Origin: Porphyra umbilicalis
Lineage: Eukaryota; Rhodophyta; Bangiophyceae; Bangiales; Bangiaceae
Reading direction: 5' to 3'
NCBI GenBank assembly: GCA_002049455.2
Contig: KV919001.1
Span: 59,097 to 123,096 of the forward strand
Length of the DNA: 64,000 bases
Shown: positions 2,124 through 64,000 of the stretch, piece by piece
How positions within the stretch are numbered: position 1 is the stretch's first letter
Layout: each line of letters opens with the position of its first letter
The notes under the pieces: model-generated
Told to the model about the DNA's origin: nothing
Seen by the model: only the letters and a program-made list of their open reading frames with translations
The model's database searches: none
Position numbers and translations under genes: made by a program

Positions 2124-2145
2124 CGTACAGCACGGGGGATTCGCC

Positions 2146-2163: not shown

Positions 2164-2182
2164 TACTAACCCCGCTCGCGGT

Positions 2183-2192: not shown

Positions 2193-2242
2193 CGGAATTC
2201 GGAATGGGTTCCGGCGCGTGTGACTCGGATATGGCCGTACGT

Positions 2243-43393: not shown

Positions 43394-43513
43394 ACGTACA
43401 GCACGGGGGATTCGCCTGTGATCCCTCACCAGACTACTAACCCCGCTCGCGGTCGCTTAGCTTCGGAATTCGGAATGGGTTCCGGCGCGTGTGACTCGGA
43501 TATGGCCGTACGT
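43394..43513 (-). rRNA. 5S rRNA, array copy 69
   Basis: Consensus body. Type A spacer, m1 G, m2 GC. Confidence 0.96.
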
Positions 43514-44028
43514 GGGATGAAAAGGTCGTCTGTGCGCCTAGTGCCCGCGGACGCTCGGGCCACCGACGTGTACTCGTCGGCCTCCTACACCCTGTGACTG
43601 TCCCTCGTGTCGACGGCGGCCCCTGGGAGCAGCAGGACGTCGCACCGCGACGTCGCGCCAGCGGATAGAGCTCCTCGCTCCCGCGCAGCGCTCCCGCGCA
43701 GCGCTCAACGCTCGGTGCACGTCGGCTCCGCGGGCTCTGCCCAGTCGCTCAACTCGGGCACCAACAGGAGGTGACAGAATCGTGGATTCGGGACTGCCTG
43801 ACATGCTCCTCTCGTCAAAGCTCACCTGCCACGTGCTCCACGCGCGAAAACGCAACTGGCACGTGCTCCAAGGTCGCTCCACGGTCGCTCCACGGTCGCT
43901 CCACAGTAGGTTCATGTTTGCTCGACGCTCGCTCCACGCTCGCGTGACGGGACGGCGACAAGTAATAGAGTTGGGCGCGAGAAGCATGGCACGGAGGGAT
44001 GGGAGTTGAGGCAAAAGTTTGGGAAAAA

Positions 44029-44148
44029 ACGTACAGCACGGGGGATTCGCCTGTGATCCCTCACCAGACTACTAACCCCGCTCGCGGTCGCTTAGCTTCG
44101 GAATTCGGAAAGGGTTCCGGCGCGTGTGACTCGGATATGGCCGTACGT
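44029..44148 (-). rRNA. 5S rRNA, array copy 70
   Basis: One substitution, plus-strand t to a at 44111 (RNA position 38). A second change lies just upstream of the gene (ggtgaaaagg). Confidence 0.92.
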
Positions 44149-44662
44149 GGGGTGAAAAGGTCGTCTGTGCGCCTAGTGCCCGCGGACGCTCGGGCCACCG
44201 ACGTGTACTCGTCGGCCTCCTACACCCTGTGACTGTCCCTCGTGTCGACGGCGGCCCCTGGGAGCAGCAGGACGTCGCACCGCGACCTCGCGCCAGCGGA
44301 TAGAGCTCCTCGCTCCCGCGCAGCGCTCCCGCGCAGCGCTCAACGCTCGGTGCACGTCGGCTCCGCGGGCTCTGCCCAGTCGCTCAACTCGGGCACCAAC
44401 AGGAGGTGACAGAATCGTGGATTCGGGACTGCCTGACATGCTCCTCTCGTCAAAGCTCACCTGCCACGTGCTCCACGCGCGAAAACGCAACTGGCACGTG
44501 CTCCAAGGTCGCTCCACGGTCGCTCCACGGTCGCTCCACAGTAGGTTCATGTTTGCTCGACGCTCGCTCCACGCTCGCGTGACGGGACGGCGACAATAAT
44601 AGAGTTGGGCGCGAGAAGCATGGCACGGAGGGATGGGAGTTGAGGCAAAAGTTTGGGAAAAA

Positions 44663-44780
44663 ACGTACAGCACGGGGGATTCGCCTGTGATCCCTCACCA
44701 GACTACTAACCCCGCTCGCGGTCGCTTAGCTTCGGAATTCGGAATGGGTTCCGGCGCGTGTGACTCGATATGCCGTACGT
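44663..44780 (-). pseudogene. 5S rRNA, array copy 71 (last copy, 118 nt, decayed)
   Basis: Two single-base deletions near the RNA 5' end (gactcgatatgccgtacg on the plus strand). The upstream flank up to 44871 has many changes, where the other copies are nearly identical. It is the copy next to the 3' end of element 1. Probably a 5S pseudogene. Confidence 0.75.
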
Positions 44781-44913
44781 GGGATGAAAGGTCGTCCGTC
44801 GCCTAGTCACCGGACGCTCGGCATCGACATTATCGTCAACCTCCTTCACCCTGACTGTCCCTCGCGTCGACACTGAATTGAAGCCCCCCCGGCACAACGG
44901 CGAAGAGCATCAC

Positions 44914-45490
44914 TTAAGAAGGAAGGCAGGGGGACACCGTCGTCACAGCCGACCCCATCGTCGGCAGCCGACGCCTCGGCGGGCGGCACGCCATGCCCGT
45001 CGGTGGCGCCGGCCGCCGCGAAGCAGGAGGCGTACCCCGCGGCCGTAGCCAAAGCGAGGGAGCGCCACAGAGCAACGGAAACGTCGCGAAGCAAAGCGCC
45101 GCGCACCGCCGCGAGCAAGGGTCCAGCAAGGGCCGTCTTCAGCCACTGGTCGCTAGCGGGCCCGACCCGGCCGAGCGCCTCCCACACGACGGGGGCGAAG
45201 GCATGAGGCGGGGCGGAGGCCGGCAGCGCCGGGGCGTAGTGCGCCACCTTGGCACGCTCGCGGGCCGCCGCGGCGGCGGGCCGCAGGGGCGCCGTGCGCA
45301 TCGCGCGGGCGGCGGCGTCGCCCCACGGGCCCGCGACGGACACGTCCAGCCAGGTGACGGCGCCCGTGGCAGCCTCGGTGGCCCGCACGTCCGGCCGGAG
45401 GGCGCCGCCCGACCCGTCCAGGGCCGCCTCCACGGCGACAGCCCCCCAGCGGGGCGCCCGCCGCAGGGCCGCCACCACGCGCCGCACCAA
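44914..45490 (-). CDS. Restriction-like endonuclease domain of element 1 ORF2
   Basis: The frame entered after the CCHC frameshift. Counting from the codon at 45490: RPDV with Pro33-Asp34, then 14 residues to Asp49 in TWLDVSV, then Lys81 in RERAKVAHY. This is the PD-(D/E)xK arrangement of the R2-type nuclease that nicks the target. Downstream, FAPVVWEALGRVGPASDQWLKTAL also resembles the conserved helices after the nuclease core. In this frame there is no stop before the element boundary: translation would run through the 3' junction to a TGA at 44846-44848 in 5S spacer. A shifted frame ends at TAA 44914-44916. Confidence 0.72.
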
Positions 45491-45529
45491 GAAGTGGTTT
45501 AGCGCGGTGCGGCGGGCACCCTGGGCCGG

Positions 45530-45583
45530 GCAGCCCCAAGGAAGTGCCGGCCGGCCGCGTCCACACGAGCGCCGCAGGGGCAG
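45530..45583 (-). other. CCHC zinc knuckle preceding the RLE (element 1)
   Basis: Reads C-P-C-G...D-A-A-G-R-H-F-L-G, and the final Cys is reached only in the next frame (GCPAQGARRTALNHFLVRR). C-x1-C-x9-H-x3-C is close to the CCHC motif found just before the endonuclease in restriction-like-endonuclease retrotransposons. A frameshift at about 45533-45538 falls inside the motif. Confidence 0.6.
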
Positions 45584-46152
45584 CGGGCCGCGGCGGGTAC
45601 AACCGCGCGGTGGCGCCGAGCCACAGCCGCGCCATGTCGCGCATGGCGCGGCCCGGGACGGACAGCAGCCCGTCCCCCGGGACCGGCACTGCCGTCAGCC
45701 GGAGGGCGGCACGGCCGCCCTGCACTGCTGCGAGCGCGGTGCGCTCCCACCCCGACAGCCCGGCAAAAAGCCGCGCCCGACGCGCCGCGTGGGCGGGGCG
45801 GGACAGCTCGCGCTGCGACGCCCCGACCGCCCCCGACAGTAGCTGGTGCCAGGTGAGCTAGGACGGCGCCCCCCAAGAGTGGCCAACGGCCGGGTTGTGG
45901 GAGGGGGCGCCGGCAGCACACCGGGCGAGCGGGTCGGGGGCGGACGAGGCGCCGGCACGACGCGCGACCCACAACAGCCCCGTGTCGGGGGCGGCGGCGT
46001 TGGCGGCGTGGGCGTCAACCAACGACAGGAGGTCGGCCGTCAGCGCCGCGGCGCGAGGCGCAAGCGGCGGGGAGGGCGGGGAGAATAGGGGGGGGGGGGG
46101 CGGGGGTGGCGGACCCGCGCCCCAGACCGACGCATCCCCCGGCGGCGCCATT

Positions 46153-48648
46153 TCAGGGCCGTCGGGCCCCTCCTAAATGACGGGGGGGGCGGCGGCGAGA
46201 CGGGACGCGGCCCGGAGGGCGGCGGCGCAGGCGCCGACGGCGGCAGCCGGGCGCGCGGGGGATCCACCAGCGGTGCCGGCCCGCCGACGGGCCGCAGGGA
46301 CGCGAGGGCGGCACGCCGCCGGCAGGGGCGGCGCGAAACGCGCCGACACGGCGGCGGCGGCGGCGCGCCGCTGGGCGGCGCGGCGGCCCCGGCAGCCGGC
46401 AGCCCCTCCGCCCACGGCACCGCGGCCCCGTCCGCGGGGCCCGGCAGCACGCGCGTGGCGGCGAGAATGGGGCCGCGGCGGGTGCCCGGGGGCCCGGCGG
46501 GCGGGCCAGGACCGCCCGCCCGGCGGGGCGCACGGCCGGGGGCGGAAGGACCGATGGGGCGACGACAGGGCGGCGGAGCGCAGCCGCCGCGGCGGGGCGC
46601 CCAGCCGCGGCCGCGGCGGCGACGACGGGGGAAGAACGGCGGCGGCGGGGGGGAGCACGCGGGTGGAGGGGGGGGCGGGGCGATGGGGGGGGGGAAGGGG
46701 GGGGGGGGCCGGCCGGACTCGTCCGAGGCAGGGGGGGGGGGGTGGGGGGGGGGGGGAGGGGGGGAGGGCGGAGGCCGTCGGGCGGCATGCCGTCGACGCC
46801 GGAGTCAAAGGCGATGAGGGCGTCGGCCTGCGCCGCCAAAGCCGGCAAGTACCGACGCCCCGCCCGCAAGGACGCTACCCACGAGGCGAGCGCCGCCGCC
46901 GGGGCGTCGGCCGTCTGCCCCCCCAACCCCAGCCCGCCGTGCGGCAGCGGCAGCGCCGCCCGCCGGACGAGCGCGGCGACCGCGGCCGGGTCGTCGCGCG
47001 CGTCAGTCAGCAATCGCCGCACGGCCCCCTGCGCCGTGCAGTCGACAGCGCCCGCGAGCAGCGCCCCCCACTCGAGGGGGAGCGCCCGCAGCCAGTAGTT
47101 GGGCCGCGGGCCGGCGCACAGCCGCAGAAGCAAAAGCTGCGACTGCAGCTCGGCCGGGGGGAGGGCGACGATTGCGTCGACCAGGCGGCCTTGCTCCGCC
47201 GCCAGCCCGGCAACGGCCGACGACATGAAGTCGTCGGTCGCGACGGGCACGGAGAACTGCAGCACCCCGTCGGTGCTCCACCGCGCTGGCCAGCCGGCGG
47301 GCGCGGAGGCCCCGGCGGGGGAACACCCGACGCACTTGGCCGGGGCCAGCTCAGCGTCCACCGCCGCCCCCGCCGCCGCGGCCGTCCGCAGCACCGCGGA
47401 CATCTCCGGCGGCTCGGCGATGACGACGACGTCGTCATGGAAGCCGCGCACGACGGCGGAGGGGTGGTCGGCGGCGAGGCGCTGGAGGGCCAGCTGCATT
47501 GCCGCGGCATGGATGAGGGGGCCTAGCGGGTCGCCCTGCTGGACGCCTCGCTCGGCCCGCAGCCACAGGCGCTCCAGCGGCGCGGCCGTCCCCCCCCCCC
47601 CCGCGTCGCCGTCCGTCGCCCACCCGTACACGCGCAGGGCGGCCGGCCCCTCGTACACCGATGCCAGGTAGAACCGCAACAGAGGAAACGCGCGCGACAG
47701 GTACGCCACCGCCGCCGGCAGGGACACGAAATTGAATGCGTTCCGGCAGTCCAGCTGCAGGAGGGCGGCGGTTGGGCGGCAGGCGAGCACGGCGGTGACC
47801 TCGTGCAGCACCCGCTCACAGGCGTTGCCGACGCCCACCCCCTGCTGGAGGGGGCTGAGCAACGCCGCCGCGTCGTCCCGCACCGCCACCGCCAGCGCCA
47901 CCGCCGCCAGCTTGCGCAGCACCTCGGGCATTCCGATCGGGCGCAGCCGGGGGAGGCCGTCCGCGTCCACCCCCCCCGGCTTGCACAACAGCAACAGGTT
48001 GGCGCCCGCCAGCGCGTGCGCCGCCAGCGGCGGAACGCGGCGCACCGCCCCCTCGCCAGCGAGCAGCCGCACCACCGCCGCCACATCCGCCTGCCCCTCC
48101 CCCCCAAGCACGCGCATGTGCTCCATCCGCAGGCCGGTGGGGCCGGGTGCGAGCCCCGCGGGGCGCGGCGGATGGCCTCGTCGACCGCCTCCCGCGGCAG
48201 CTGGACGGCAGCGACGACTGTCGGCCGAACTCGTCGGCCGAGGCGCAGCCGGCGGGAAACGCCGCCACCACCGACGCCGTCGACGCCAACCCCGGTGAGG
48301 CGGGGGGAACAGGCGGAGGGCCTTGGCCCACACTGCCGGTGTGCGGGCGGCCACGGGAAGGGCGAGGAGGGCGCGGGCGGCAGCGCTGAGCTGGTTGGCC
48401 CGCACCACCCGCAGTGCACACCGCTGCCCCGCCGTCGAGCGGGGCGGCAGCGCCCCCCCCCCCCCCCCGCCCGCGGGCCAGTGGCCGCGACGGACCGGCC
48501 CCGTCCCCCCCCCCCCCGCCGGTGGGCGCCGGCCGCGCCACACGCCGCCGTCTCGGTCCGCCAACGCGGCAGAAAGTCGCCGCCGAGCAGGGCATCGACA
48601 CGCGCCGCGAGGGACAGGGGCGGCGCCGCCGCCTTGGAGGCGGGGCAT
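46153..48648 (-). CDS. Reverse transcriptase fragment of element 1 ORF2 (831-codon open frame)
   Basis: RNA-dependent DNA polymerase for target-primed reverse transcription. The longest intact piece of ORF2, reading from an ATG at 48648. RT signatures by codon: GPTGLRMEHM at 169-178; KPGG...LPRLRPIGMPEVLRKLAA at about 223-249; motif A LQLDCRNAFN with catalytic Asp 300; motif B GVQQGDPLGP at 368-377; motif C FHDDVVVIA with Asp 405 and 406; thumb-like LRLCAGPRPNYWLRALPL at 509-525; and HGGLGLGG at 570-577. Motif C has His where most RTs have Ala, Leu or Met before the two Asp. Codons 1-68 and everything after about 620 are low-complexity and probably out of frame. Confidence 0.85.
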   Translation of the reverse strand: MPRLQGGGAAPVPRGACRCPARRRLSAALADRDGGVWRGRRPPAGGGGTGPVRRGHWPAGGGGGGALPPRSTAGQRCALRVVRANQLSAAARALLALPVAARTPAVWAKALRLFPPPHRGWRRRRRWWRRFPPAAPRPTSSADSRRCRPAAAGGGRRGHPPRPAGLAPGPTGLRMEHMRVLGGEGQADVAAVVRLLAGEGAVRRVPPLAAHALAGANLLLLCKPGGVDADGLPRLRPIGMPEVLRKLAAVALAVAVRDDAAALLSPLQQGVGVGNACERVLHEVTAVLACRPTAALLQLDCRNAFNFVSLPAAVAYLSRAFPLLRFYLASVYEGPAALRVYGWATDGDAGGGGTAAPLERLWLRAERGVQQGDPLGPLIHAAAMQLALQRLAADHPSAVVRGFHDDVVVIAEPPEMSAVLRTAAAAGAAVDAELAPAKCVGCSPAGASAPAGWPARWSTDGVLQFSVPVATDDFMSSAVAGLAAEQGRLVDAIVALPPAELQSQLLLLRLCAGPRPNYWLRALPLEWGALLAGAVDCTAQGAVRRLLTDARDDPAAVAALVRRAALPLPHGGLGLGGQTADAPAAALASWVASLRAGRRYLPALAAQADALIAFDSGVDGMPPDGLRPPPLPPPPTPPPLPRTSPAGPPPPSPPPSPRPPLHPRAPPRRRRSSPVVAAAAAAGRPAAAAALRRPVVAPSVLPPPAVRPAGRAVLARPPGPRAPAAAPFSPPRACCRAPRTGPRCRGRRGCRLPGPPRRPAARRRRRRVGAFRAAPAGGVPPSRPCGPSAGRHRWWIPRAPGCRRRRLRRRPPGRVPSRRRPPRHLGGARRP
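46660..46771. repeat. Poly-G/poly-purine low-complexity tract in element 1
   Basis: Four G runs of 10, 12, 12 and 13 bases (46685-46694, 46697-46708, 46731-46742, 46744-46756) lie between the RT and CCHC regions. On the coding strand this is Pro-rich CCC/CCA sequence. It could form G-quadruplexes on the plus strand and is a likely place for sequencing error. Confidence 0.8.
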
Positions 48649-49087
48649 GGAGGTGCAACACCAGGGACGGGAGCGTCAGCGCCCAGAGCCAGGCGAGTGG
48701 CTGCTCCGGCTCCCGCCGGAGCCACGCAAACGCCTCCCCCCCCAGCTGGCGCCATGCGCCACGCAGAGGCGGAGGCACGGACTCGGTGTCCGTGCCAGCG
48801 ACGCCACCAGCGGCGCCCAGCCGTCGGCAGTCGGCGACATCGCCCCGAGGAAGGCGCGCCGGGCGCGCGCGCACGCCGCGCGGTCCAACGCAAACATGGT
48901 CGGGGTGGGGGCCGGCGGCGTGGACGGCGCCGCGGCGGCGATGCCAGGCGCTGAAGACGCGGGCGGTGCGGGGTGGGCAGCCGTCGGGGGGGGGGGGGGG
49001 GTGGAGTGGAGGAGGCTCCGGGGTTGACTTTGCACTGCCGCTGGTGCGCCGCCAGCGGCGACGAGCCATGGCGGGCCTCGCCGCCGG

Positions 49088-49243
49088 GTACGGGCTGTCG
49101 CACCAGCGGCAGCCAGCCAACCCCAGCGCCGCCACCACCGCGGCCGGCACGTCGTCGATGACGTGCGCCTTGCGGAGGTGGAGGAGCATGGGCGCCTCAT
49201 GCGGCGCCCCCGCAAGCACCGCCCCACACAGAGGCACACGACA
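49088..49243 (-). other. C2H2 zinc finger plus CxxC pair (element 1 ORF2 N-terminus)
   Basis: Cys-x4-Cys-x15-His-x4-His (CRVPLC ... HLRKAH), followed 18 residues later by the CRWCDSPY motif. Spacing and sequence match element 2 almost exactly. In R2-like elements such N-terminal fingers bind the target DNA, so this is the likely determinant of 5S-spacer recognition (inference). Confidence 0.75.
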
Positions 49244-51829
49244 CACCGCCCCGCGGCCGCCGAAATCCGCCGCGTCGGCGGCGGCCGCCGCCGACACCAG
49301 GTCAGCCCCCCCCCCTCCGGGGCCGACGCGACTGGCGCCCCCACCCGCCCGCAGCGGACAACGGGGGCACGCACCCCCGCCACCGGCGCCCGGGGCGGAG
49401 CGGAGCCGCCTCCCGCCGTTGGAGGTCGGCGATGGGCGTCACTCATGGCGACGCCCGTCGCTAGCAGGGTGGTGGGGCCACCGGGTGGTCGGCGCCGTCG
49501 CCGCCATGTCCACCGGAGGCGGCGACGCGACGGCCGTGGCCAATGTCGGCGCCACCGGTGGCGGCGGGGGCGGCGGCGCGGCGGGGGCGTCGTCGGGGCG
49601 AGGCGCCGACGAAGAAGACGCGGACGACGGGGGGCGGTTGACGCCGCCGCCACCGCCGCCGCCGCCGCGGCCGACCGGGTGCGCGGGCGGGGGCGAGAGG
49701 CGGAGACGGGGTCTACCGCCGGCGCGGGCGCGGGGGGTGGTCGGCAGGGCGGCGGGGGCGCAGCAGGTACCCCCCTCCCGGGCGAAGGCTGCCGCGGCCG
49801 GCACCCGGCTGCCGCCGGGGGCGTGGCGGGAGGCGGTTGTGCAGCGGCCGCGGCCTGCAGCGCCGCGCCCCCCCCCCCCCCCCGAACAGCGGGCCCGCAA
49901 ATGGGCCGCCTCGAGGCGCCCCCGCCGGCGGGGGCGGGGAACCGCGGCGGGGGGGTGCACGGGGGGCGGCGGGCGCCACGGGCGCCGACGGCCGCCGCAC
50001 AGGCAGCGGGCAGCGGGGGACAGGGGCCCGCCCGGCAGCGGGAATCGCGCCGCCCTGGCGGTCGGACCCGCCAGGGCGGCGAGCACAGACAGCGTGGGCG
50101 GGGCCGGGGCGGCCTGGCGCCGCCCCCGGCGGCGGGGGAGGCCGGGGCGCGGCCGCCGCCCCCGAAAATGGGGCGGGCAGCGAGGACGGCCGCGAATGCC
50201 GGCGGCAGCGGCGCGCCGCGCCCCGTCGAGCGCGGCGGACGGCGGCACCGCCGCCGAAACGGTCGCGCCGGACCCCGTCGGCGGCGCCGCGCCCCCGGCG
50301 CCGGTGGCAGGCGGCGGCGACGCCGCCGCCGAAACGGGCGCACCGGGCGCGTTCACCGGCGCCCCGCCACGCGAGTCAGCCGTCACCGGCGGGTGACGGC
50401 CGTTCAGAACGCGCGGCGGCGAGAATGGGCCGGCGCGAGGCGCCGCGCGGTTCGGGTGCGCCGCCGCGGCGGGTGGGCGCCGCGCGGCCGCCTCTGGGGC
50501 GCGCCGCGCGTCCTCAGTGGACGCGGGCGACCCCGGCCGCGCCCGCCACCCGGCGGTTTCGGGTGCGGAGGGCGTGTCGGCCGGGGCGCGGGCCGCGCGC
50601 CGCGTGGCAGCCGGCGCGGGCGGAGCCGGAGGACGGGGGCCCGTCGAGGGCACCCCCTCCCCCCCCGTTGCCCGCGGCGCGGCGGCCGCCCGGTCGCCCC
50701 CGCACCTGTCCCAATCCAGGGGCGCCCACACCCCCCCGGCGGGGGCCGCCGAGGACGACTCGGTGGCCCCGGGGGAAGGCCTGGGCGCCCGCGGGGTAGG
50801 GGCGGGCGCGGTCGCAGGCGGCGGGGTCGCGGCGCGCGGCGGCGCGGCGCCCCTCGCCCCGGCAGGGAAGGCGGCGACTGCCCCCGGCCGCACGGCGCCG
50901 GCGGGGGGGCCCGCAGCGTGCGGGCACGGCCCGTCCCCCCCGCCCCCGCACCCCGCCGCCTCTTCCGTGCCCCCCCCGTTGGCGGCCGCCGACGGCGCCG
51001 GCGGCCCGGCGGGGCGCGCGACGCCCCGGTGCCCCGCCGCTCCAGCCGCCCCGGCGACGGGCCGCCCGTTGGCGGCGGCGGGCGCGGGCGGCGCGCTCAT
51101 CGTTGGCCCGCCGGCGGCGGCGGGCGCCGGCGACGCGACGGCGGGGCGCGGCGGCGGCGACACGTTTGCGGCAAGCGGCGACGGCGCGGCGACGACGGGC
51201 GGCGGCGTCAGCGCGGCGACGGCGGCCGACAGCGGTTGCACGGGCGTGGCAAGCTGCCGCGCCGCAGCGTCAATCGGTGGCTGCGGCGGGGCCCCACGCG
51301 CCGCCCCGCCGTCGCGGGCGCTTTGGTGGTCGGCGGCGGCGCCGGGCACCACCGTTGTCGGCCGCGGCACGAAAGCCACCCAGACGCCCCCGCACCCATC
51401 CCGGTCGAGGCTCGGGATGCGGGCGGCGCCCGCCCGCCCGTCGGCGATGGCGGGAGCGCCCGCGGCGCGTGGGCGCAGCCCTGCTCCGGCGTTCGCGCAA
51501 GCCACCCCCCCCCCCCCCCCCAGTAGCACGCCCGGCGGCCGCCGGCGTCGGTGCCGCCAACCCGTCGGGCGGCGCGGCTGCGGCGCCGCTCATTTGCCGC
51601 CTGCCGCCGGCCGCGCCGGCGGCGAGGTGCCCGGCGGCGGCGGAGGCGGCGGCCGGCGGCGCCGTCGGCGGCGACGCGGCGGCGGCCGGCGACGGCGGCG
51701 CGACGACGACGCGATGCGGCGGCGACGAGGCGGCGGCGGGCGCCGGCTGCGCGGTGGCGGCAAGCGCCGGCGGCGGCGCTGCTGCAGACGCCGGCGGCGG
51801 CGCAGCCGGCGAGGCGGGAGGAAGCCCCC

Positions 51830-52630
51830 TCCCCGCATCGTCCCGGGGCTCCGCCGCCGCCGCCGCATTATTGGCGGTGGCGGCGGCGGCGGCACCGCGC
51901 GACGGCGCCTCGGCGACCGCCGCGGACGCCGGCGCAGCGGCGGCGGGCGACGCCCGCGCGACGGCAGGGACGACCGATGCCGGCGTCCGCGCCGCGGCGG
52001 CGGCCGCTGTCCTCGGATTGGCCGGCACCGCCGCCGGGGCGCCGCCGGCGTCACCCCGTGACGCCACCAACGTCCCCCCCGCACCGACACGGGGCGCCGT
52101 TGCTGGCGTCGCGTTGACAGCGGCAGCGGCGGCGGCGTCGCCGGGCGGCGGCGCCACAGCGAGCGCGGCGGATGACGGCGCAGCCACGGCGTGCGCCGCC
52201 CGCGCAACGGCGGGGACGACCTTGACCGGCAGCCGCGCCGCGGCAGCGGCCGCGGACGGTCAGGCGGCCGGCCTTCGCGCGAGTGCGCCACCGGCGACAA
52301 CTCCCGACACGGTCAAACCCCCCCCCGCACCGACCTGGGGCTCCGCCGCCTTCGCCGCGTAGTTAGCGGCGGAGGCGGCGGAAGCAGCAGGCGGCGGTGC
52401 CCCGGCGGCCGCGGCCGCGGCGGACGGCGGCGCGACGGCGGCGGGCGGCGCCCGCGCCACGGCAGGGACGGCTGTGGCCGGCGGCTGCTCCGCGGCGGCG
52501 GCCGCGGACGGCGGGTTGGCAGGCACCGCCGCGGGGCCACCGCCGGCGTCACCCCCCGACGCCGCACAGCTCCCCCCCGCACCGTCCCGCGGCGCCGCTG
52601 CCTGTGACGGCGCCGCCTCGCCGTCTATTG
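51830..52630 (-). repeat. Three degenerate repeats of about 90 residues within ORF1
   Basis: In one minus-strand frame the pattern GAGG..xASxGDAGGxPAAVPANP, then Ala run, then VPAVARAxPAA, then Ala-rich, is seen about three times between 52630 and 51830. The middle copy carries the TGA at 52260 where its neighbours read on through PANP. The period is about 270 bp. It is a low-complexity tandem expansion, probably variable between copies. Confidence 0.5.
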
Positions 52631-55269: not shown

Positions 55270-55536
55270 CGCCGCCCGCCCAAAAATGCCGGCGACCACG
55301 GGGCGGCGGCGGCCACCACGCGCAGCGTAGACGCCGCACGGGGGTCAGCGAGGCCCGCGCGGAACGCTTCGGCCGCTGCCGCCACTAACGTCACCGCCGC
55401 CGTCGACCCGAAGCGGTCGACGTCGACGATGGCGGCGGGGCGTACGGCGGCGGCGGCGGCGACGAGGCCGCGCAGGCTGCGCGTCCGCTCCGCGCGTGAC
55501 ACCCCCGACACGTGCAGTGTCAGCAGTGTCGGGGGT
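55270..55536 (-). other. RRM-like segment of ORF1 (element 1)
   Basis: The pattern is a hydrophobic strand LLTLHVSGV, a helix with ERTRSLRGLVAAAA, a strand AIVDVDRFG, a strand AAVTLVAAA, a helix EAFRAGLAD, then TLRVVAAAAPWSP. This strand-helix-strand-strand-helix-strand order resembles the RRM-like domains of ORF1 proteins in many non-LTR elements. No sequence search was possible, so the fold is a guess from the pattern. Confidence 0.4.
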
Positions 55537-56402
55537 GCCGGACGGCGACGCGCCGCCCGCGTCGGCATCGTCAGCGCCGCCACGGCGGCGGCCGAGCGGG
55601 CAACGACAACGGCCGCCGACGCGCCCATGGGCGGATGCGGCGGCGGCACGGGCGGGACGGCGGCACGGGCGAGCGGCGGGTCGGCCGCCGACGGAACGAC
55701 GGCCATGGCCGCCGACACCGGCGGGCCCGGCGGCGACGGCGGGCGTGCTGCCGCCGGCAAGGCGGCGAGCGGCGGCGCGTTTTCCGCCGGCGGGGCGACG
55801 GCGGGTGGCGACGCGGCGGGGGACGGGCGCGCACCGCGGCGGCGGCCGCGGCGGGGGACGACCGTCCACGGGCGGTCGTCCCCCCCGCCGCTCCGCCGTG
55901 GCAGCGTCACGGCCTGCGCCACGCCCGACGCCGCCGAGGACAGGGAGATGGCCGCCGGGGCGGGGGTGGGCTGTGGGATGCCACCGACACCCGCCGCCAA
56001 GACGGCCGAGGGGCAGGCAGCGCCGGCCGCGGCCGCGCGCTGGGCGGGCAGGTCATGGTGACCGCCGCCAGCGGCACCGCCGCCGGCCGCGCGTCGCGGC
56101 CGGGCCTCCCAAGAGGCCAGCGAGGGAAGCGAAGAGGTGGGAGCGGGCGGGGAAACAAGCGATCCGCCCGCCGAAAGCAGTGCAGCACCCCCCACAGCAC
56201 CGGGCACACGAGCCTTGCCTCGCAAAGCAGCCCCCCCAGACCCTCCTTCGGAGCCCCCGACGGCACAGACGGCAAAGGGACCGGCCGCGGACGACACAGC
56301 ACCCCCAAAAGCCGCGTCCTCACCCCAAAGGGGCCCCCGCGGCGGCACCAAAACGCCGGCGGGGGCGGAAGAAGAAGACGAAGCGCACGAAGCAGACCCT
56401 AA

Positions 56403-56728
56403 CTCCCCGCTTAGCGGGGAGCGCCACTCGAGCAAGTACGTATCCCCCCCCAAATCACCCCCACCGACTGTAAGCGAAACTCGATTGGTCCGGATCAAAT
56501 CGATCGCCGATCGAACCAAACAAGCGCGCTGTAAGTGCCCTAAATCACGATTAGACGGCGACACGGAGTCTTACAGCGAGACCAACCCCCGCGCTACAAA
56601 CGCGGCGGCGTCGCGATCGGCCCCCATCGCACTCCCCCCCGCGAAACAAAAGCGATGGGGGGGTGCCCCAGCACCCCCCCGACCCTCCTGCAGCGTCAGA
56701 GAGAAAGAAAGCAATGCGAAAGATGGAT
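56403..56728 (-). other. Structured 5' leader of element 1
   Basis: On the minus strand this follows the 5S T-run and precedes ORF1. It contains several perfect inverted repeats: 56657-56666 with 56671-56680 (10 bp, 4-nt loop); 56621-56630 with 56652-56661 (10 bp), which shares 56657-56661 with the previous stem; 56527-56535 with 56570-56578 (9 bp); and 56403-56410 with 56414-56421 (8 bp, 3-nt loop). Base composition here is less extreme than in the ORFs. The role is unknown: a ribozyme or an internal entry site are possibilities. Confidence 0.6.
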
Positions 56729-56732
56729 AAAA

Positions 56733-56852
56733 ACGTACAGCACGGGGGATTCGCCTGTGACCTCTCACCAGACTACTAACCCCGCTCGCGGTTGCTTAGC
56801 TTTGGAATTTGGAATGGGTTCCGGCGCGTGTGACTCGGATATGGCCGTACGT
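56733..56852 (-). rRNA. Isolated, diverged 5S rRNA gene between the two elements
   Basis: 120 nt with both helix I strands intact. There are five differences from the array consensus: plus-strand t to c at 56761, c to t at 56763, and c to t at 56793, 56803 and 56810. The last three are CpG to TpG and lie in or beside box A (RNA positions 60, 50 and 43); one destroys the EcoRI site. The terminator is T5 and continues straight into element 1. It may be a silenced copy or pseudogene. Confidence 0.85.
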
Positions 56853-57160
56853 GGGATGAAATGGTCGTCTGTGCGCCTAGTCCCCGCGGACTCTCGGCCC
56901 ACCGACGTGTACTCGTCGGCCTCCTTCACCCTGTGACTGTCCCTCGCGTCGACGGCGGCCCCTGGGAGCAGCAGGACGTCGCACCGCGACGTCGCGCCAG
57001 CGGATAGAGCTCCTCGCTCCCACGCAGCGCTCCCGCGCAGCGCTCAACTCTCGGTGCACGTCGGCTCCGCGGGCTCTGCCCAGTCGCTCAACTCGGGCAC
57101 CAACGGGAGGTGACAGAATCGTGGATTCGGGACTGCCTGACATGCTCCTCTCGTCAAAGC
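56853..57160. repeat. Truncated 5S spacer fragment
   Basis: The upstream part of a unit's spacer, about 308 bp, similar to the units at 40.4 and 42.3 kb (ctccttcaccc, ccctcgcgtcgac, aactctcgg). It stops after gtcaaagc at 57160, where array units continue tcacctgcc. The break marks the left boundary of element 2. Confidence 0.85.
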
Positions 57161-59634
57161 GGGGGCGCTGCGGTCGCCAAGCGCGGCGACGGTGGCCGCG
57201 GCGACCGCAGCGGCAGAGAGTCGCCGCCGCGCGGCGGCGACGACCGGCGCCGGGCGCGGCGCCGGGGGCGGCACCGGCGGCGCTGGCGGCGCCGCGGCAG
57301 TCGGGCGACTCGTCGGCAGCAGGTTGCGCGGCGGCGCACCGGTGTCGGCGCCGGCGTCCAGCTCGGCGACGTCCGCCCGACGCAGAGAGTGGGGGAGCGG
57401 GGGGGGGGGGGGGGGGGGGGGGGGGCCTCACCGACCGCGGGCAGGGCGCCAGGTTGGAGGCGGGCGGACGGCGCCGCGCCGGTGCCGCCGCGCCGCCCGG
57501 ACCGAAGCGCATCGCCGCCGCCGCCGACGGGTTCGCCCGCGCAAAAAGGCAGCGACCGACGACGTACCGCCGCGCCCGCCAGCATCCCCGCCACGACGGG
57601 AGCGGCACCGGCCTTGGGGTCAGGGGGGGGGGGGGGGGGGGCAAGCGCACGACCGCCAACCGACGCCACCGCCGTGTCGTCGGTGCCGACGTCAGAGTCG
57701 GCGCGGACGGGCGGTACCGTCCTCTCGCCACGCATGTCCCGGCCACATTTGGCGCGCGCGGGAATCACCGTTTCGCCGACACGTGCGAATTCCGCCACGT
57801 GGCCCGCGAAAGGCGCCACCAAACACGTCGGCGCGGTGCGTCCGAAAACAGTGTCCCGCGCTTGGCCCGGCATCAACGAGGCGGCCGTCTGCGCCTGCGG
57901 CGCTGACCTCGGCGGCGGCAGGGCGCCCGCCGCCGCGGGCTGCCCCGCCCGCCGGCGCCGAGACGCGGGCGGGACGCGCGGCCGGACGCACGCCTCGGCG
58001 GGCAACGCGAACCGCGCCGCGCCACCGCCGTCGGTGGCCACACAGAGCGGGGGGACATCCGCCCCTGGCGGCGGCGCGTCGACGGCCCACGGCACGTCGG
58101 CGCCGATGCCGGCGCCGGGCGGGAATACGCGCGGCACCGCCGCCGCAGCCGCCCTCGCAGTCTCACGCGCCCCACGCGTGGGGCCACCGGGAACGGCGAC
58201 CCGTAGGTCGCCGACCACGCCCGGGGCGGCTGTCGTGGGCGCAGATGGGGGGCGCCCGGCCACACGCACCGTAGCGCCGGCATTGTGCCGCGACGCGTAG
58301 GTAACCCCGGAAGCCGCGGCAGTCGCCGCGGCCGAGGTGGCGAGCGCGTCGCCCTTGCCAGCGTGCGCCTCGCGGGAAGCGCCCGCCCGGACGTCGCCGC
58401 CAGTCGGCGGTGCCGCGTCGCAGCCGTCGCAAGGAAAAACGTGTCGGGGCGCCGCCGGCGCGGCCGCGCCGTGCATGGGGGTGGCGGCCGATGCCTCCAA
58501 AGCAGCCGTCGCCGCCTCCCCGTCATGAACCGGTGCCACTCCAGCGGCTCCGTCCATGTCCTCCTAGGGCACATCCGCCGCCACCAGCACCGCCTCCGCC
58601 GGCTGCGGGGGGGGGGGGGGGGGGGGAGGGGGGCAGCGTCCAGTACAGGGGAGCGCACCACGGCCCCCGTCCGTCCACCTACACCAGGGTACGCGCGTCC
58701 GGCTGCACACGCAGGCGGGCCCGGCCGAGCCGCGCCCTTTGGAACCCGACCGGTCGACGCGGCAGCACGACGACCGATGGTGGCGCCCGGTGGCGACACC
58801 GCTGACACGGCGGCCGCCACCGCCGACGCTGCCGCGTCGGAATGCCGACGCGCCGCCGGCAATGCCTCGCCGAGCACGCGGGCGGGGAGCGCACCGCCGC
58901 CGCCGCTAAAGGACGCCGACGGCCGCCGCGGGGAGGCGCCTGCAACGACGGGGGCCGCGGCAGCCGACCGAGGGGTGGTCGGCACCCCGACCAATCCCAT
59001 CGCCGCGGCAGTACGCAGGCGCGCCGCCAGCAGGGCAGCACCCGGCGTCGGCGCCGAAGCGGCCGGCGCGGGGTGGGGCGGCAAGAGGGAGGCTGCCTCA
59101 CCCGCGCCACCAGCAAACGAGTAGAGCGCCGCTGTCCCAGCGAGCGTGGGGGCGGCATCGGTGGCGCCCCCGCTCGGCGGCGCCACAGGCACCTCGGCAC
59201 ACGCAGGGGAGCCGCGACGGCACCACAGCAGGCACGCCCGCAGTCGGTTGGGGCACAGGGCAGACGATGCAAGGTTGGGAAGGGGGGGGGGGGGGTGTAG
59301 GGGGGAAGGCGGTCCGAGGCGCTGGCATGATTTGAATCGATCCGCAGCAGCGGCCGGGCCGAAAACGAGGCACCACCGGCGGCGCGCGCGCGCACCGTAG
59401 TTTCGGGCGCGGTCGTGGCCGAAATTGTGCGGCATGGTGGCGCGCCGACCGCCCCAGCCAACCAGCGGGGAGACCGCGGGGGGTGGGAAAGACGGCGGTC
59501 ATGACGGCCGGGGTGACGCCCCGCGTTCCCACCCCGACGGCAACGGGGGATGCGGATCACAGAGGGTGGCCGCGGCCCCTACCGCGGCGCTGCGCTCAAC
59601 AGCGTGCATAGCAGTGGGGCAGGTCCGCAACGGG
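57161..59634 (-). other. Unassigned Ala/Pro/Gly-rich 3' part of element 2
   Basis: About 2.5 kb with a 467-codon open frame on the minus strand (57154-58557, ending in TGA seven bases into the 5S spacer) and other low-complexity frames up to 59435. The 467-codon frame has a CDGC pair near its start and a less biased stretch around MPGQARDTVFGRTAPTCLVAPFAGH; I do not recognise it. G runs of 27 (57399-57425), 19 (57623-57641), 20 (58607-58626) and 14 (59282-59295) interrupt it. No RLE or CCHC match to element 1 was found in any minus frame. Confidence 0.35.
57399..57425. repeat. G27 homopolymer
   Basis: Longest single-base run in the window. Two similar runs (G19 at 57623, G20 at 58607) lie nearby. 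Frames across it cannot be trusted. Confidence 0.95.
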
Positions 59635-60169
59635 CTACGGCGGGGATTGGGCGTGGTCAGTGCCGTGGCGAGCCCCGCCGCGAGCGCGGGCGCCGCGCCG
59701 CGCGCCGTCGGCTCGCGGGTGCGCGGCCCAGCGGCCGGGGCTGCGCCTGGGCGGCTGCTGCCACCTGGGGCCCACCCTGGCTCGGCCTTGGGCGTGCGCC
59801 GGAGCGCCCGGGTCGTCAAGAGAACCGCCAGACGGTGCAGGCGGCCACGCCAGAGGCTCGCCCGCTGCCGTACCGGTGACTGCGACCAGGCCGTCCGCTA
59901 CCGCTGCCAGCGTTCGAGAGTAGTGTCGCCCCGCACGCAGGGTGTCCAGCTGCGACGCGAGGGAAGCCGCGGGCACCACAGCCGTGCGGCCGCCAATACC
60001 CAATCCACCATGGGCCACTGGCAGCGACGCGCGGTCAAGCAGGTCGGCGACGACCGCCTCGTCGTCACGGGCGTCGGTCAACAGCTGACGCAGGGCGCCC
60101 TGTGCGGTCCGGTCGACCGCCGCAGCCAAACGGGTGCCCCTTGCCAGTGGCAGCGCCCGCAGCCAGTAG

Positions 60170-61589
60170 TTAGGCCGCGGGCCAGCGCACAGCCGCAATA
60201 GCAACAGCTGCGACTGGAGCTCGGCCGGGGTGAGGGCGTTGATGGCGGCCACAAGGCGGGACTGATCGCGGCCAGGCGGTCGACCGACGCCGCCAAAAAG
60301 GCGTCGGTACCAAGGGGGACGGAGAACTGATGCACCCCTTCGGCGCACCACCGCGCCGGCCAACCAACCGGGGCGTCCGCCCCGCCGGCGACCAGCCAGC
60401 GCACTTGCTTGGCGCCAGCTCGGCGTCCACGGCGGCGCCCGCCTCGGCCGCCGTCCGCAGCACCGCACGCAGCTCCGAGTGTGGCGCCACGACCACGACG
60501 TCGTCATGCACCGCGCGCACGACCGCGCCGGGGTGGGCCGTTGCCAGCCGCAGCACCGCCAGGTGCATGGCGGCGGCGTGCATCAGGGGGCCCAGCGGGT
60601 CACCCTGCTGGACCCCGCGCTCTACCGGCAGCCACAGCCGCGTCAGCGCCGCGGCTCCGCCACTTACCACGTCGTCGGCCACCGCCCACCCGTACACGCG
60701 CGGCGCGGCTGCCCCCAAGTACACCCGGTCCAGGTACGGGCGCAGCAGGGGGAGGGCGCGCGCGAGGTAGGCGACCGCCGCCGCCCGAGACACCAGGTTA
60801 AACGCATTTCGAAAGTCCAGTTGCAGCAACGCGGCGGTCGGGTCGTGTGCGAGTTCAGCAGTAACATCGTGCACGACCCTCTCACACGGGTTGGGCACCC
60901 AACCCCCTTTGCAGGGGTGCCAACAACCGAGCCGCCGCGTCGCGGACTGTGCCCGCCAGCGCGGCCGCAGCCAGTTTGCACAAAACTTCAGGCATGCCGA
61001 TAGGGCGCAGCCGGGGGAGGCCATCGTCGTCGTCCCCCCCCGGCTTGCACAGAAGCAATAGATCCGCGCCCGCCAATGCGTGAGCGGCCAGCGGCGGCAC
61101 GCGTCGCGCCGACACCGGCCCCGCCAACAGGCGCACGACCGCGGCCAGCGCGACCTGCCCCGAGTCCCCCAGGGCGCGCAGGTGCTCCATTCGGAGCCCT
61201 GAAGGACCAGGGGCAGTGCCGCGCGGGGCGCGGCGCAGGGCGTCGTCGGTGGCCGCGCGCGGCAACGCGGCCGGCACACCCGAGATGCGTCCGAAAGCGT
61301 CGGCCTCCGCCAGAGCGGCGGGAAACTCGCGTTCTACGGACGCGACCGTAGCGAGGCCGTCCAAGGAGGGGGGGAAAAGCAAAGTCGCCTGGCTCCACAC
61401 TGCTGGCGTGCGAGGCGCGAACGGGGCGCCCATCAGAGCCCGCGCGGCGGCGCTCAGCCGCCCCGCTCGGACGAGCCGCAGTGCTCGGCGTTGGCCTGCG
61501 GTGACTTTCGACGGGGGGGGGGGGGGGCACCGCCCCGCGCCGGACTCCGGCGCGTACGCCGGCCGGGCGGCGCCGGTGGAGCCCGCCAC
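60170..61589 (-). other. Reverse transcriptase domain of element 2
   Basis: Built from two overlapping frames (60882-61589 and 60170-61279). It shows GPSGLRMEHLRALG, KPGG with GLPRLRPIGMPEVLCKLAA, motif A Asp in LQLDFRNAFN, motif B QQGDPLGP, and motif C VHDDVVVVA. The catalytic Asp residues are all present. The frame changes near 60900 and again near 60400. Confidence 0.8.
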
Positions 61590-62096
61590 ACCCCCGCGTC
61601 GCGGTCGCCGAGTGCCGCCGAGAAGTCACCGCCGAGCAGCGCGGACGCGCGTGCCGCGTGGGGCATCGGCGGCCGCGCCGCGGCAGCACGCGGAGCCGGG
61701 TGGTGGAAAAATCATGGATGGCAGGGTCAGCAGCCACAGCCAAGCCAAGGGGTCATCTGGGGCGCGGTGCGCCCAGGCCAGCGCGTCGTCCCCCAGCAGC
61801 GCCCATGCTCGACGCAGCGCGGGGGGGACAGTTGAGAGGGTCCGCGCCGGTGAAGCCACAAGCGGCGCCCAGCCGTTGGCGTCGGCCGGCACGGCGGCAA
61901 GAAAAGCGCGCCGCGCGCGCTCCCACTGGGAGCAGTCCGTTGAAAACAGGTCGATCACAGCGTCTGGCGCCGGCGGCGTCATGTGCTGCGCGCCTGTCGC
62001 CAGCGCAGTGCCGCGTAGTCGCCGCCGCGGGTTTGCCCTACACTGCGTCTCGCTTGCCAGCAGCGGCGACATGCCAAAGCGCTTGCGGGCCGAGGG

Positions 62097-62252
62097 GTAG
62101 GGGCTGTCGCACCAGCGACAGCCCGCCAACCCCAAATCGGCGACGTCCGCCGCGGGCACGTCATAAAAAACGTGCGCGCGGCGGAGATGAAGCAACCCCG
62201 GCGCGTCACCGAGGGCGCACGGCAGGACGACGAAGCAGCCGTCCACGGGGCA
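62097..62252 (-). other. C2H2 zinc finger plus CxxC pair (element 2 ORF2 N-terminus)
   Basis: CPVDGC ... HLRRAH with spacing C-x4-C-x15-H-x4-H, then GLAGCRWCDSPY, the same spacing as in element 1. Strong conservation in an otherwise frame-broken protein marks this as the likely DNA-binding module of the family. Confidence 0.75.
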
Positions 62253-62423
62253 GATTGACGCCGCCCCTGCGGCGGCAGGCGCCGGGAGCCGTGTCCCCCC
62301 ACCCACACCTTCGGTCGCAGCGGCCAAGGGGGCCGTGCCGGTACCGCCGCGGGCTGGCGTGCCGCCCGTGCCGTCACAAGGCACGGCCGCCCGAGGGCGG
62401 GGGCTGGGGGGGGGGGGCAAGAG

Positions 62424-63986
62424 TCATTCATTGCGCCGCTCGTCGCTGACGGTGACAGCAGCCCTGGCCGAGGGCTCCGAATGAGCCAGCCTGGCAGCCG
62501 TCGACGAAGCGCACGGCACGCGTAGAGATTCCCGACGGGCCTCAGCGGCCGCGGCGGCCGCGGCGGCCACGGCGGCGCCGGTGCGCGGCCGGGCGGGGCC
62601 GACGACCGGGACCTCAGCAAGCGACGGCGGCGGTGGTGTACGCGCCCGTGCCAGGCGCGGACGGAAAAGCAGCCCACCACCAGGAAGCGGGACGGCCGCC
62701 GCCAACACAGTGTCGGCTAGAAGCAAGTCGGGGGGGGGAAGCGGGGGGGGTGGGAGGGGCGTCCGCCGCGAGGGTTGGGCCTTGCGGCCGCCGCCGCGCC
62801 GAAACCGCGCGACAGCCGCCCCAACAACCGGCAGACCGCACGCCGCACCAGCGCCCGTCAAGGCGACCGCCGGGGTGCTGGGTGGGGCTCCCATGGAGCG
62901 TCCCAACGTTGCGCGGCGCGGTGGCGTGCACGGCGCTGCTCCAGCACCCGCCCGAGGCGACGACGCAGCGGCAACCGCCGACGCAAGGGTTTTTCGGGCG
63001 CCGTCCGCGACGACGCCCGCGGAGCGCGGCGTGAACCGCGCAGGTGGCAAAGTGGGGGTCGCCTCGCGATTGCGCCGCCTGCCCCACAGTGGTGTGGCCG
63101 CCAGAAGGTCGTCCACGGCCGGGGGGAGGGCGCCAATCACGCGCGCGGCCGCGCGACGGGACGGACGCGCGCGTTGGGGCGCTAACCCGCGCGGCGGCGC
63201 ACTGGCAGCGCGGCGACGAGCGTCGCCCGCGCCGGCGAGCCGGGGCGAGGCCCCAGTCGCCGCCACCGCCGTGCACAGGGTGGTGTCGGCGCCCCTGAAA
63301 CCGGACGGTGGCGCGTGCGCGCGCGCCACGCCAAGCGATGGCGCATCGGCCGCGCGGCTGCGAGAGGAATTTCCGTCGGCGCCCTGCCGCGTGCGCCCGA
63401 CTGCCTCCGCCGCCGCGTCCGGAGTGGCGTTGCTGCGCCGCCGCCGCCGCCGGCGACGGTTGCGCTGAGGGCGGCCCGCAGCTGGGGCGGGGCGTGCCCC
63501 CTCGACCGTTCCCGCGTCCGCGCCGCGCACAGAAGAAGCAGCGGCCGCGCCCGGGGCAGGTGCGTTTGTGCGGCGCAGAATCTTCGCCTCCGGGCCAGGC
63601 GCGTTCGCGGTGTAGGCAGCGGCGTGGCGGCCGCGTGCCGCCGCGTCGTCCGCCGACGCAGCGCGCGTGGGCACCCACGCCTTGCCCAAAACTGCAGCAC
63701 CGCCGCCGGCGAGGCGCGGCGCCGGGCCGGCACTCAGCACCGCACGGCACAATGCCAACCGCCGCGCCACGTGGCCCCGCAGAGCGGCGCGGACGGGGGG
63801 CGCCAGGACAGCGCGCAGGACGGGGGGGGCGGCCACACGGTCGCGCCGAAGGATGTCCGCCCACGAGGCAAGGGGGGCAGCCGGGCAACCGGCGGCGGTG
63901 GGGGGGGGACCACCGTGGCACCGCCAGACGAAGCACCGGCGGGCCGCCCAGCGTCAGCGGGCGGCCGCCCCACGCCCGTCGTCCCC
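62424..63986 (-). CDS. ORF1 of element 2, C-terminal part, 5' partial
   Basis: The frame is open from just inside the right edge (a TGA at 63987-63989 in this frame probably reflects a frame break in G-rich sequence) to TGA at 62424-62426. It includes SWADILRRD, then PPVRAALRGHVARRLALCRAVL (about 63760-63835), which matches the conserved helix of element 1, a basic run RNRRRRRRRR, Ala/Pro-rich linker, and the C-terminus SDERRNE. From the conserved helix to the stop is about 1.4 kb, against about 5.7 kb in element 1. The RRM-like part would lie outside the window. Confidence 0.55.
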
Positions 63987-64000
63987 TCAGGCGCGCGCCC

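Follow-up and report, generated by a model that had tools for sequence, protein, structure and literature searches.

RLE-type retroelements beside 5S and tRNA genes in the red alga Porphyra umbilicalis, a family that may remake its targets

The zebrafish element Mutsu is a non-LTR retrotransposon with an AP endonuclease and belongs to the Tx1 clade. According to the accessible parts of its descriptions, it resides in 5S genes (PMC3706591), is ~5.5 kb long and has two ORFs (PMC11202950). At tRNA genes, the non-LTR elements TRE5 and TRE3 of Dictyostelium are known; they are placed in the L1 clade, TRE5-A carries an APE domain, and insertion occurs at a distance from the tRNA gene (PMC5911963, PMC3706591, in part). 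Utopia, from the NeSL clade, targets U2 snRNA genes, for example in Phytophthora, and tRNA-specific relatives of NeSL include NeSL-1_TV (tRNA-Pro), LIN15_SM (tRNA-Arg) and LIN25_SM (tRNA-Glu) (available sections of PMC4640811). Among DNA transposons, Dada comprises families directed at 5S or at different tRNAs, including Asp and Gly, and many of these insert at tRNA nt 8–13, in the A box (PMC8869645, PMC3706591, in part).

Relatives of NeSL with tRNA targets are known, and Utopia at U2 resembles the family described here. Utopia has the same order of N-terminal zinc fingers, reverse transcriptase (RT), zinc finger and restriction-like endonuclease (RLE), a strict small-RNA-gene target in some hosts, an intact U2 gene on the upstream side and one lacking its 5' part (beginning at nt 39) on the downstream side, arrays of different families, and few copies; it differs in its U2 target, and its authors inferred a deletion and left duplication possible, whereas local tRNA-Asp inserts point to duplication here (available sections of PMC4640811). 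Compared by description only, NeSL-1_TV, LIN15_SM and LIN25_SM also have tRNA targets, in other hosts and with other tRNAs (same sections of PMC4640811). TRE5 and TRE3 keep away from the gene that the present family enters (PMC5911963, PMC3706591, in part), and Dada, despite similar A-box sites, consists of DNA transposons with 6–7 bp duplications; the likeness is convergent only (PMC8869645, PMC3706591, in part). Mutsu shares the 5S location with one element of the family, E1, but judged by the described size and two ORFs, the analogy drawn in a first-pass annotation of the locus is weak (PMC3706591, PMC11202950, in part). In the open-licence literature, no printed report of an RLE retrotransposon in Rhodophyta was found.

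Two elements bordering a 5S array

The window is the whole stretch of 64,000 nucleotides that was analysed (contig KV919001.1, positions 59,097 to 123,096). A 5S rDNA array with a unit of ~635 bp fills positions 1..44871 on the minus strand (Rfam RF00001 matches and unit alignment; N gap at 772–1020). Every RF00001 match in this array is on the minus strand, and the array also occupies the upstream contig stretches read, at 27.0–47.0 and 49.1–59.1 kb. Next to it lie E1 (44872..56728, minus strand, 11,857 bp) and E2 (57161..64000, minus strand), whose 5' end is past the contig end. E1 is enclosed by two 5S-unit pieces, the second being a partial, diverged unit (56729..57160, minus strand; unit positions 7–438; 96.3% to an array unit). 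The 5S gene of this piece (56732–56852) scores 67.1 bits against RF00001; the array copies score 73.3–84.4 bits. The elements are related and point the same way, head to tail, where the first annotation had them back to back. The first-pass annotation was right that they are joined directly to 5S-unit sequence at the array end: E1 at 44871/44872 and 56728/56729, and E2 at 57160/57161.

There is a 5S gene at each end of E1, inside a 225-bp direct repeat. The arms, 44659..44871 on the 3' side (minus strand; 5S gene 44662–44780) and 56729–56953 on the 5' side (minus strand, part of the partial unit), are 89.3% identical over 225 aligned columns. The 5' junction of E1 is at unit position 438 and starts at the 5S T-run. 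By our reading of the alignments, its 3' junction is 101 bp upstream of the 5S gene, and E1 is without the ~90-nt 3' UTR found in the tRNA lineages. In unit positions, the 3' junctions are 214 for E1, 7 for E2 and ~620 for a relic on C77; a single fixed 5S insertion site was not seen across the three. The stretch of spacer that immediately precedes the 5S gene (unit 214–314) was also considered as a relic of the element 3' UTR and was rejected for want of convincing similarity: in 28 comparisons under two scorings, the lowest result was 6 of 200 shuffles scoring as high.

E1 contains a C2H2-like zinc finger (49163..49243, minus strand, from a motif scan) followed by a CXXC at 49097–49111, an 840-codon open frame encoding the RT domain (46156..48675, minus strand; FHDD at 47431–47442) and an RLE region (44981..45532, minus strand; 48% identity and E=3e-49 by tblastn with a C57 RLE; RPD-X14-D at 45344–45397). 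Its RT matches Pfam RVT_1 above the cut-off (E=7e-9). The C2H2, RT and RLE are in different frames and the CCHC is split between frames, so E1 reads as broken in this assembly. E2 has a C2H2 at 62172–62252 and RT pieces in several frames within ~59919–61953, with an RVT_1 match (E=6e-6, 26.5 bits) under the cut-off of 29.6. In this element, incomplete at the contig end, tblastn with RLE queries and a motif scan found no RLE. The annotated pair of diverged C2H2-RT elements, with an RLE in E1, stands as to domains; the E1 frames, the split CCHC and the E2 RT score qualify it.

The N-terminal C2H2 finger of the RLE group is found in both elements, and the family has the non-LTR-type RT and the C-terminal CCHC plus PD...D endonuclease. 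CCHC and RPD-X14-D are present in the C57, C394, C36, C596 and C481 copies, and the C77 relic carries a partial RLE. A reading in which some copies are missing the RLE was rejected: E1-like RLE DNA lies 4.1–4.4 kb downstream on C226, C260, C9 and C119, past the flank stretch read. In profile searches among solved structures, the RT best matches PDB 8gh6, which we take to be R2Bm, weakly (E=0.01) and then other R2 proteins, with heme oxygenase at E=0.074 marking the noise level. The RLE profile also best matches 8gh6 (residues 933–1011), again weakly (E=0.003), with other R2 proteins behind. In a single-sequence search, the E1 RT frame as a lone query retrieved no RT, and the predicted structures are of low confidence (mean pLDDT 45.6 for RT and 48.4 for RLE). 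The annotation, which had non-LTR retroelements of the RLE type placed in a multicopy RNA gene, agrees with these matches, whose E-values are too weak for clade assignment; R2 itself targets 28S rDNA, as opposed to tRNA and 5S genes here. The RT tree covers copies of this genome only.

tRNA genes as neighbours across the genome

The genome holds 83 RT matches, many in head-to-tail arrays with a period of ~8 kb, whose units are separated by 5'-truncated genes for tRNA-Asp(GTC), tRNA-Gly(CCC) and tRNA-Ile(AAT). An exact tRNA-Asp/Ile/Gly match lies 1.0–2.5 kb downstream, in sense, at 19 of the 83 (0.027 expected); the same count gave 0 for antisense only and 0 for upstream. Most copies with readable 3' ends are in these tRNA genes, and the family had been annotated too narrowly as 5S-resident: E1 and E2 are part of a larger family with many copies in tRNA genes. 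Of 16 element 3' ends of the Asp/Gly type, 14 are followed by the matching tRNA within 16–45 nt (reversed-pattern control 0); the other two, both on C271, are without an exact tRNA behind them. This succession of intact 3' end and target gene is a finding on the tRNA-linked copies, outside E1's own lineage. Among the copies read, the Asp and Gly types and one of the two Ile types have a fixed 3' junction, which in most tRNA lineages lies at ~tRNA nt 5–13, near the A box. In the second Ile type (C415, C15, and C57 near 54.2 and 61.7 kb), what is left of the tRNA begins at about the anticodon. No Pol III gene was seen in 9 of the 20 downstream flanks examined.

By exact pattern, 36 tRNA places were found, 17 intact and 19 5'-truncated. 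An element 5' block follows 11 of the intact genes, none of these loci being a row of the block model, and does not follow the remaining 6. All 19 truncated tRNAs lie directly 3' of an element 3' end. In 18 cases the 5' block of a further element comes next, and 9 of these 18 loci had served as rows of the model; the last truncated tRNA, C24:261298, sits at its locus end. ARAGORN, which misses intron-bearing and truncated genes, reported no tRNA-Asp, -Ile or -Gly gene, either in the window or among the 38 loci supplied. A tRNA family search, which is no census, scored 63 of 1261 candidates and yielded at least 53 matches; C665, a contig that looks like a plastid, accounts for 25 of the 53 listed.

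The 5' block is common to 5S-, Ile-, Asp- and Gly-linked copies. In E1, its conserved hairpin lies at 56607..56695 (minus strand), shared with the tRNA-linked lineages, and the model, to which E1 contributes one of its 14 rows, matches 56558–56721. Among these rows, which are related to one another, the stem covaries: both sides are changed in 19 cells, a number that 0 of 500 shuffles equalled. The number of pairs with a double change (5), however, was equalled in 55 and that of further pair types (13) in 363 of 500 shuffles. A known ribozyme was considered and rejected, as no Rfam ribozyme family matched up to E=10 in 56350–57250.

Targets follow RT clades, with support of 100/100 for tI, 100/100 for tG and 99/98 for tD; the last includes C24:267840, whose own target is unread and which lies in a tRNA-Asp array. 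E1, E2 and the C77 copy form no supported clade, with which a single origin of the three is still compatible. The tRNA genes carry inserts in D- and T-loops like those described for Cyanidioschyzon (PMC3978253, in part). Against the intact gene of their own cluster, D-loop inserts of truncated tRNA-Asp genes show 1 and 1 (C36), 0, 0 and 1 (C394) and 0 and 3 (C24) differences. Between loci, 158 pairs have a median of 13 differences, with the lowest at 0, 3, 3, 3 and 4, so that some are as close as within-cluster pairs. Two C271 inserts are 17 steps apart.

A possible route of insertion and its alternatives

We consider it probable that E1 and E2 belong to an RLE-type (R2/NeSL-like) family that inserts at Pol III genes and duplicates most of the target, with sublineages using tRNA-Asp(GTC), tRNA-Gly(CCC), tRNA-Ile(AAT) and, for E1, 5S. 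The RLE would nick the target, near the A box (~tRNA nt 5–13) in most tRNA lineages and further in for the second Ile type, and target-primed reverse transcription would begin at this nick. A second cut may fall at, or just past, the gene 3' end. Filling of the stagger would duplicate most of the gene, leaving an intact gene upstream of the new element and a 5'-truncated copy downstream, and the element seems to supply its own T-run after the intact gene. Because the intact copy would be open to a new insertion, insertions could stack head to tail, the youngest next to the intact gene. E1 may have taken the same route at 5S. This account draws on the sense tRNAs downstream of 19 of the 83 RT matches, the 14 of 16 Asp/Gly-type 3' ends before a matching tRNA, the intact genes ahead of elements and truncated ones after them, the local match of tRNA-Asp inserts, the agreement of targets with RT clades, the shared subclade order on C24, C394 and C271, and the 5' block common to all four kinds of copy. 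The order of the cuts and the source of the duplication are inferred. For the stronger statement, that insertion remakes the target, with the tRNA gene duplicated from ~A box to 3' end, a terminator-like T-run from the element, an intact tRNA kept at the head, ordered and dated stacks, and a family spread by lineage among tRNA-Ile, Gly, Asp and 5S, we lean only slightly to the affirmative.

Several observations speak against this account. The intact tRNA-Ile at C57:70592 has a D-loop but no T-loop insert, and the truncated copy past its element, at 78735, is without the D-loop insert; on C455, a tRNA-Ile 3' part and an element 5' block follow DNA that does not resemble an element end. The absence of native DNA behind any of the 19 truncated tRNAs, the distant C271 inserts and the two C271 ends without an exact tRNA, the flanks without a Pol III gene and the shorter tRNA of the second Ile type point the same way, as do, for the window, the E1 3' end and the lack of a clade of E1, E2 and C77. 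Some of this would suit an element that carries the tRNA piece itself, with RNA that is co-transcribed from a start inside the tRNA (which is sometimes spliced) and cDNA that re-joins the upstream part of the target gene, so that the duplication is RNA-derived and not a filled stagger. The C57 and C455 cases fit this, as do the 18 truncated tRNAs running into another 5' block and the truncated Ile copies, which are without the D- and T-loop inserts of the native genes C122 and C169. Truncated tRNA-Asp copies that keep the inserts of the local intact gene (C36, C394, C24) argue against it, although a local source transcript could give the same, and we regard it as somewhat unlikely. If each locus received one insertion and its array then grew chiefly as the unit of tRNA and element was multiplied, through unequal crossing over or in tandem duplications, this would explain why most C57 units read are 93.7–96.1% alike over 8–24 kb and why inserts are shared within three clusters. 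However, the C57 unit from ~50.2 kb is only ~75% like the others, 11 separate intact tRNA loci carry the 5' block, and wherever the tree has both diverged tRNA-Asp subclades in a single cluster (C24, C394, C271), the same subclade is on the 5' side, an order that whole-locus duplication could mimic. This growth as the main process seems improbable.

A dedicated 5S-resident lineage for the window elements is suggested by the contact of E1, E2 and the C77 relic with 5S units, the 5S direct repeat around E1 and the start of its 5' end at the 5S T-run. It is unlikely in view of the three different 3' junction points, the RLE not found in E2 and partial in C77, and the unsupported grouping. Moreover, the E1 relatives on C226, C9, C119, C425 and C50, all on the plus strand, have no same-strand 5S beside them (≤3 mismatches); a 38-nt 5S pattern at this tolerance, which more decayed 5S would escape, had 0 forward matches in the genome. 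A location due to chance, or to old elements surviving passively where the 5S array ends, accords with the broken frames of E1 and E2 and the RLE not found in E2, but three separate RT copies adjoin 5S units and E1 has its 5' junction at a Pol III terminator, as is seen in the tRNA-linked copies; we give this explanation little probability.

If target duplication at Pol III genes is right, one genome contains related RLE elements at four Pol III targets, target choice can be read against phylogeny, and it becomes testable how RLE elements change target. Inserts in tRNA genes would serve as local barcodes for what an insertion duplicated. It could also be tested how a parasite persists in essential genes of low copy number without destroying them; the exact pattern counted 17 intact genes for the three tRNA types. 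Target duplication would account, too, for GC-rich tandem arrays that might otherwise pass for satellites or assembly trouble. Should insertion indeed remake the target, the family would parallel, in a eukaryote, those bacterial islands that enter a tRNA gene and restore it. Telomere- and centromere-type arrays were also considered for the 8-kb head-to-tail clusters; the telomere reading was dropped, since clusters on C57 and C24 lie inside contigs and tRNA pieces stand between the units.

Elements E1 and E2 beside the 5S rDNA array

The window is the terminal part of contig C241 (59097–123096 of 123,096) in a genome assembly of 83.8 Mb in 665 contigs. 5S units of about 635 bp occupy window positions 1–44871 and the upstream stretches of C241 that were examined. 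Screening the genome for a 38-nt 5S pattern, with up to 3 mismatches allowed, gave 199 reverse matches, all on C241 among the matches listed, and none on the forward strand.

E1 (44872–56728, minus strand) contains a C2H2 finger, a reverse transcriptase (RT) in an 840-codon frame, and a restriction-like endonuclease (RLE) with an RPD-X14-D motif, each in a different frame. E2 (57161 to the contig end) holds C2H2 and RT in pieces, and no RLE was found in it. The RT and RLE profiles had a weak best solved match, 8gh6, which we take to be R2Bm, and the family is almost certainly RLE-type. The first-pass annotation described E1 and E2 as back to back; their orientation is head to tail. Because a diverged partial 5S unit separates them, a direct repeat flanks E1 (89.3% over 225 columns), and both of its arms include a complete 5S gene.

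The usual RT catalytic motif is FADD or YADD; here, it is FHDD at 47431–47442 and in other copies, and YHDD in one copy on contig C57. GC content reaches about 85% in the 5' half of E1 (49400–56500), where AT skew is marked and both strands carry long open frames; E1 exceeds each of two C57 units in length by about 3.6 kb. Near the 5' end of the element lies a conserved stem (56607–56695 and homologues) in which the lineages differ by compensatory changes; Rfam gave no ribozyme match for this region.

Intact and truncated tRNA genes around related copies

Searching with the RT of E2 (tblastn) gave 83 matches in the genome, many about 8 kb apart in a single orientation (C57, C271, C394, C24, C36, C210, C596). 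Two of them, C38:276384 and C504:29435, share the query range and frame length (675 aa) and are possibly a recent or assembly duplicate of another RT family. In the 40 kb of C57 compared, most units were 93.7–96.1% alike; similarity drops to about 75% for a unit starting at about 50.2 kb. The 98-bp block resembling the E1 5' end (56588–56685) occurs there five times, immediately preceded by a tRNA-Ile(AAT)-like piece, which Rfam scores at four of the five places; at the fifth, the tRNA is reduced to its 3' part. In E1, a 5S gene occupies this position.

Exact tRNA patterns, picked after some of the loci had been seen, gave 19 Asp, 8 Ile, and 9 Gly places, which on reading comprised 17 intact and 19 5'-truncated genes. 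The element 5' block follows 11 of the 17 intact genes, none of these being a row of the block's model: six tRNA-Asp (C36, C394, C24, C179, C438, C491), two tRNA-Ile (C507, C57:70592), and three tRNA-Gly (C17, C210, C481). The remaining six are free of it (C137, C188, C334, C122, C169, C147). An element 3' end lies directly before all 19 truncated copies; 18 continue into another 5' block (nine of these loci were model rows), and one is at its locus end. Read from the sequences, the truncation points lie at about nt 8 of tRNA-Asp, 13 of tRNA-Gly, and 5 of tRNA-Ile; the A box spans nt 8–19 (PMC3978253). The element seems to supply the T-run after the tRNAs linked to it, since on reading these runs are similar from locus to locus and differ from the ones behind the six genes free of elements. 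At C507:1–3300 (locus L051), an insert-free intact tRNA-Ile is followed by the first part of the block only (model positions 6–108) and then other DNA, and at C596:3850–4350 (L092; the same place in L069), the block is partly tandem-duplicated just downstream of tRNA-Gly.

The family very probably targets Pol III genes. One of the 36 tRNA places lies 1.0–2.5 kb downstream in sense for 19 of the 83 RT matches (0.027 expected), and none of the 83 has one in antisense only or upstream. An Asp/Gly-type 3'-end pattern, likewise derived from loci already read, matched 16 times across the genome (reversed control, 0). Within 16–45 nt, 14 of these were followed by the matching tRNA (Gly 5/5, Asp 9/11); the two other Asp-type ends, both on C271, had no exact tRNA match behind them. 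Among 20 downstream flanks examined, 11 contained part of a Pol III gene in the element's orientation: tRNA-Asp (two each in C394, C271, and C36, one each in C24 and C628), tRNA-Gly(CCC) (C481, C596), and 5S (C77). No Pol III gene was found in the other nine (C226, C425, C83, C260, C9, C162, C110, C119, C24:267840). The flanks of C226, C260, C9, and C119 stop short of the 3' ends, since RLE lies 4.1–4.4 kb downstream of RT, and the C425 copy is interrupted within RLE and then continues as other DNA.

Gene duplication or a tRNA piece carried by the element

The best explanation as a whole, and a likely one, is an RLE-type family that inserts at Pol III genes with duplication of most of the gene. 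That insertion duplicates, and thereby preserves, its target is the best account, though a somewhat less assured one. Utopia of Phytophthora similarly has an intact gene upstream and a 5'-truncated one (from nt 39) downstream, but its target is U2; its authors favoured a deletion and left duplication possible (PMC4640811).

The main rival, in which the tRNA piece is borne by the element RNA and not duplicated at insertion, appears unlikely. The odds shift slightly towards it because of two cases missed by the exact patterns: a second Ile type (C415, C15, C57 near 54.2 and 61.7 kb), where the tRNA is kept only from about the anticodon onward, and C455 (L049), where a tRNA-Ile 3' part and 5' block are preceded by DNA unlike an element end. 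C455 could be a rearrangement or an element that arrived at a new site with its own tRNA piece.

Short inserts within the tRNAs served as barcodes. In C36, C394, and C24, the insert of a truncated tRNA-Asp is 0–3 steps away from the one in the cluster's intact gene. Within contigs, 12 of 13 pairs are at 0–3 steps, with the C271 pair at 17; the 158 between-locus pairs have a median of 13 and lowest values of 0 (C271:12017 and C438), 3, 3, 3, and 4. Counting against local matching, the tRNA-Ile at C57:70592 has an insert, and the next truncated copy is without it. Element-free tRNA-Asp genes have inserts in the D-loop (C188, C334) or T-loop (C137). Nuclear tRNA genes with short D-loop and some T-loop inserts were seen at L072, L074, L075, and L077 (Asp), L082 and L083 (Ile), and L085 (Gly), with both kinds in two tRNA-Ile genes; they resemble atypical introns reported in tRNAs of Cyanidioschyzon.

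RT lineages and their targets

Families specific to tRNA-Pro, tRNA-Arg, and tRNA-Glu are named in PMC4640811. The available part of a review on Pol III targeting (PMC5911963) names non-LTR elements of the L1 clade and mentions neither NeSL nor restriction-like endonucleases. A search of open-licence papers found none on elements of the present kind in red algae.

The tree was built from 24 RT pieces of this genome only, with stops as X and three rows less than half filled. RTs group by target: tRNA-Ile (100/100), tRNA-Gly (100/100), and tRNA-Asp (99/98, including C24:267840), all nested in a single supported group of 13 rows (100/100). Outside it, with weakly supported branching order, are E1, E2, C77, and eight copies with an unread 3' flank. 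The claim of a 5S-resident family is not supported as worded. The 5' junction of E1 and the 5S direct repeat around it fit the duplication account. Its 5S specificity is unproven because its 3' end stops 101 bp short of the 5S gene and has no counterpart of the 3' UTR found in the tRNA lineages; moreover, relatives sit beside tRNA genes, and the 5S-linked E1, E2, and C77 do not make one clade, though they may share one origin.

The chances are just about balanced, leaning slightly in favour, that insertion remakes the target tRNA gene, building ordered stacks, and that the family spread between Pol III genes by lineage. The two Asp subclades occur in one order in C24, C394, and C271, with the same one always at the 5' side and its counterpart distal; in C271, this order is given without the intact tRNA itself having been seen.
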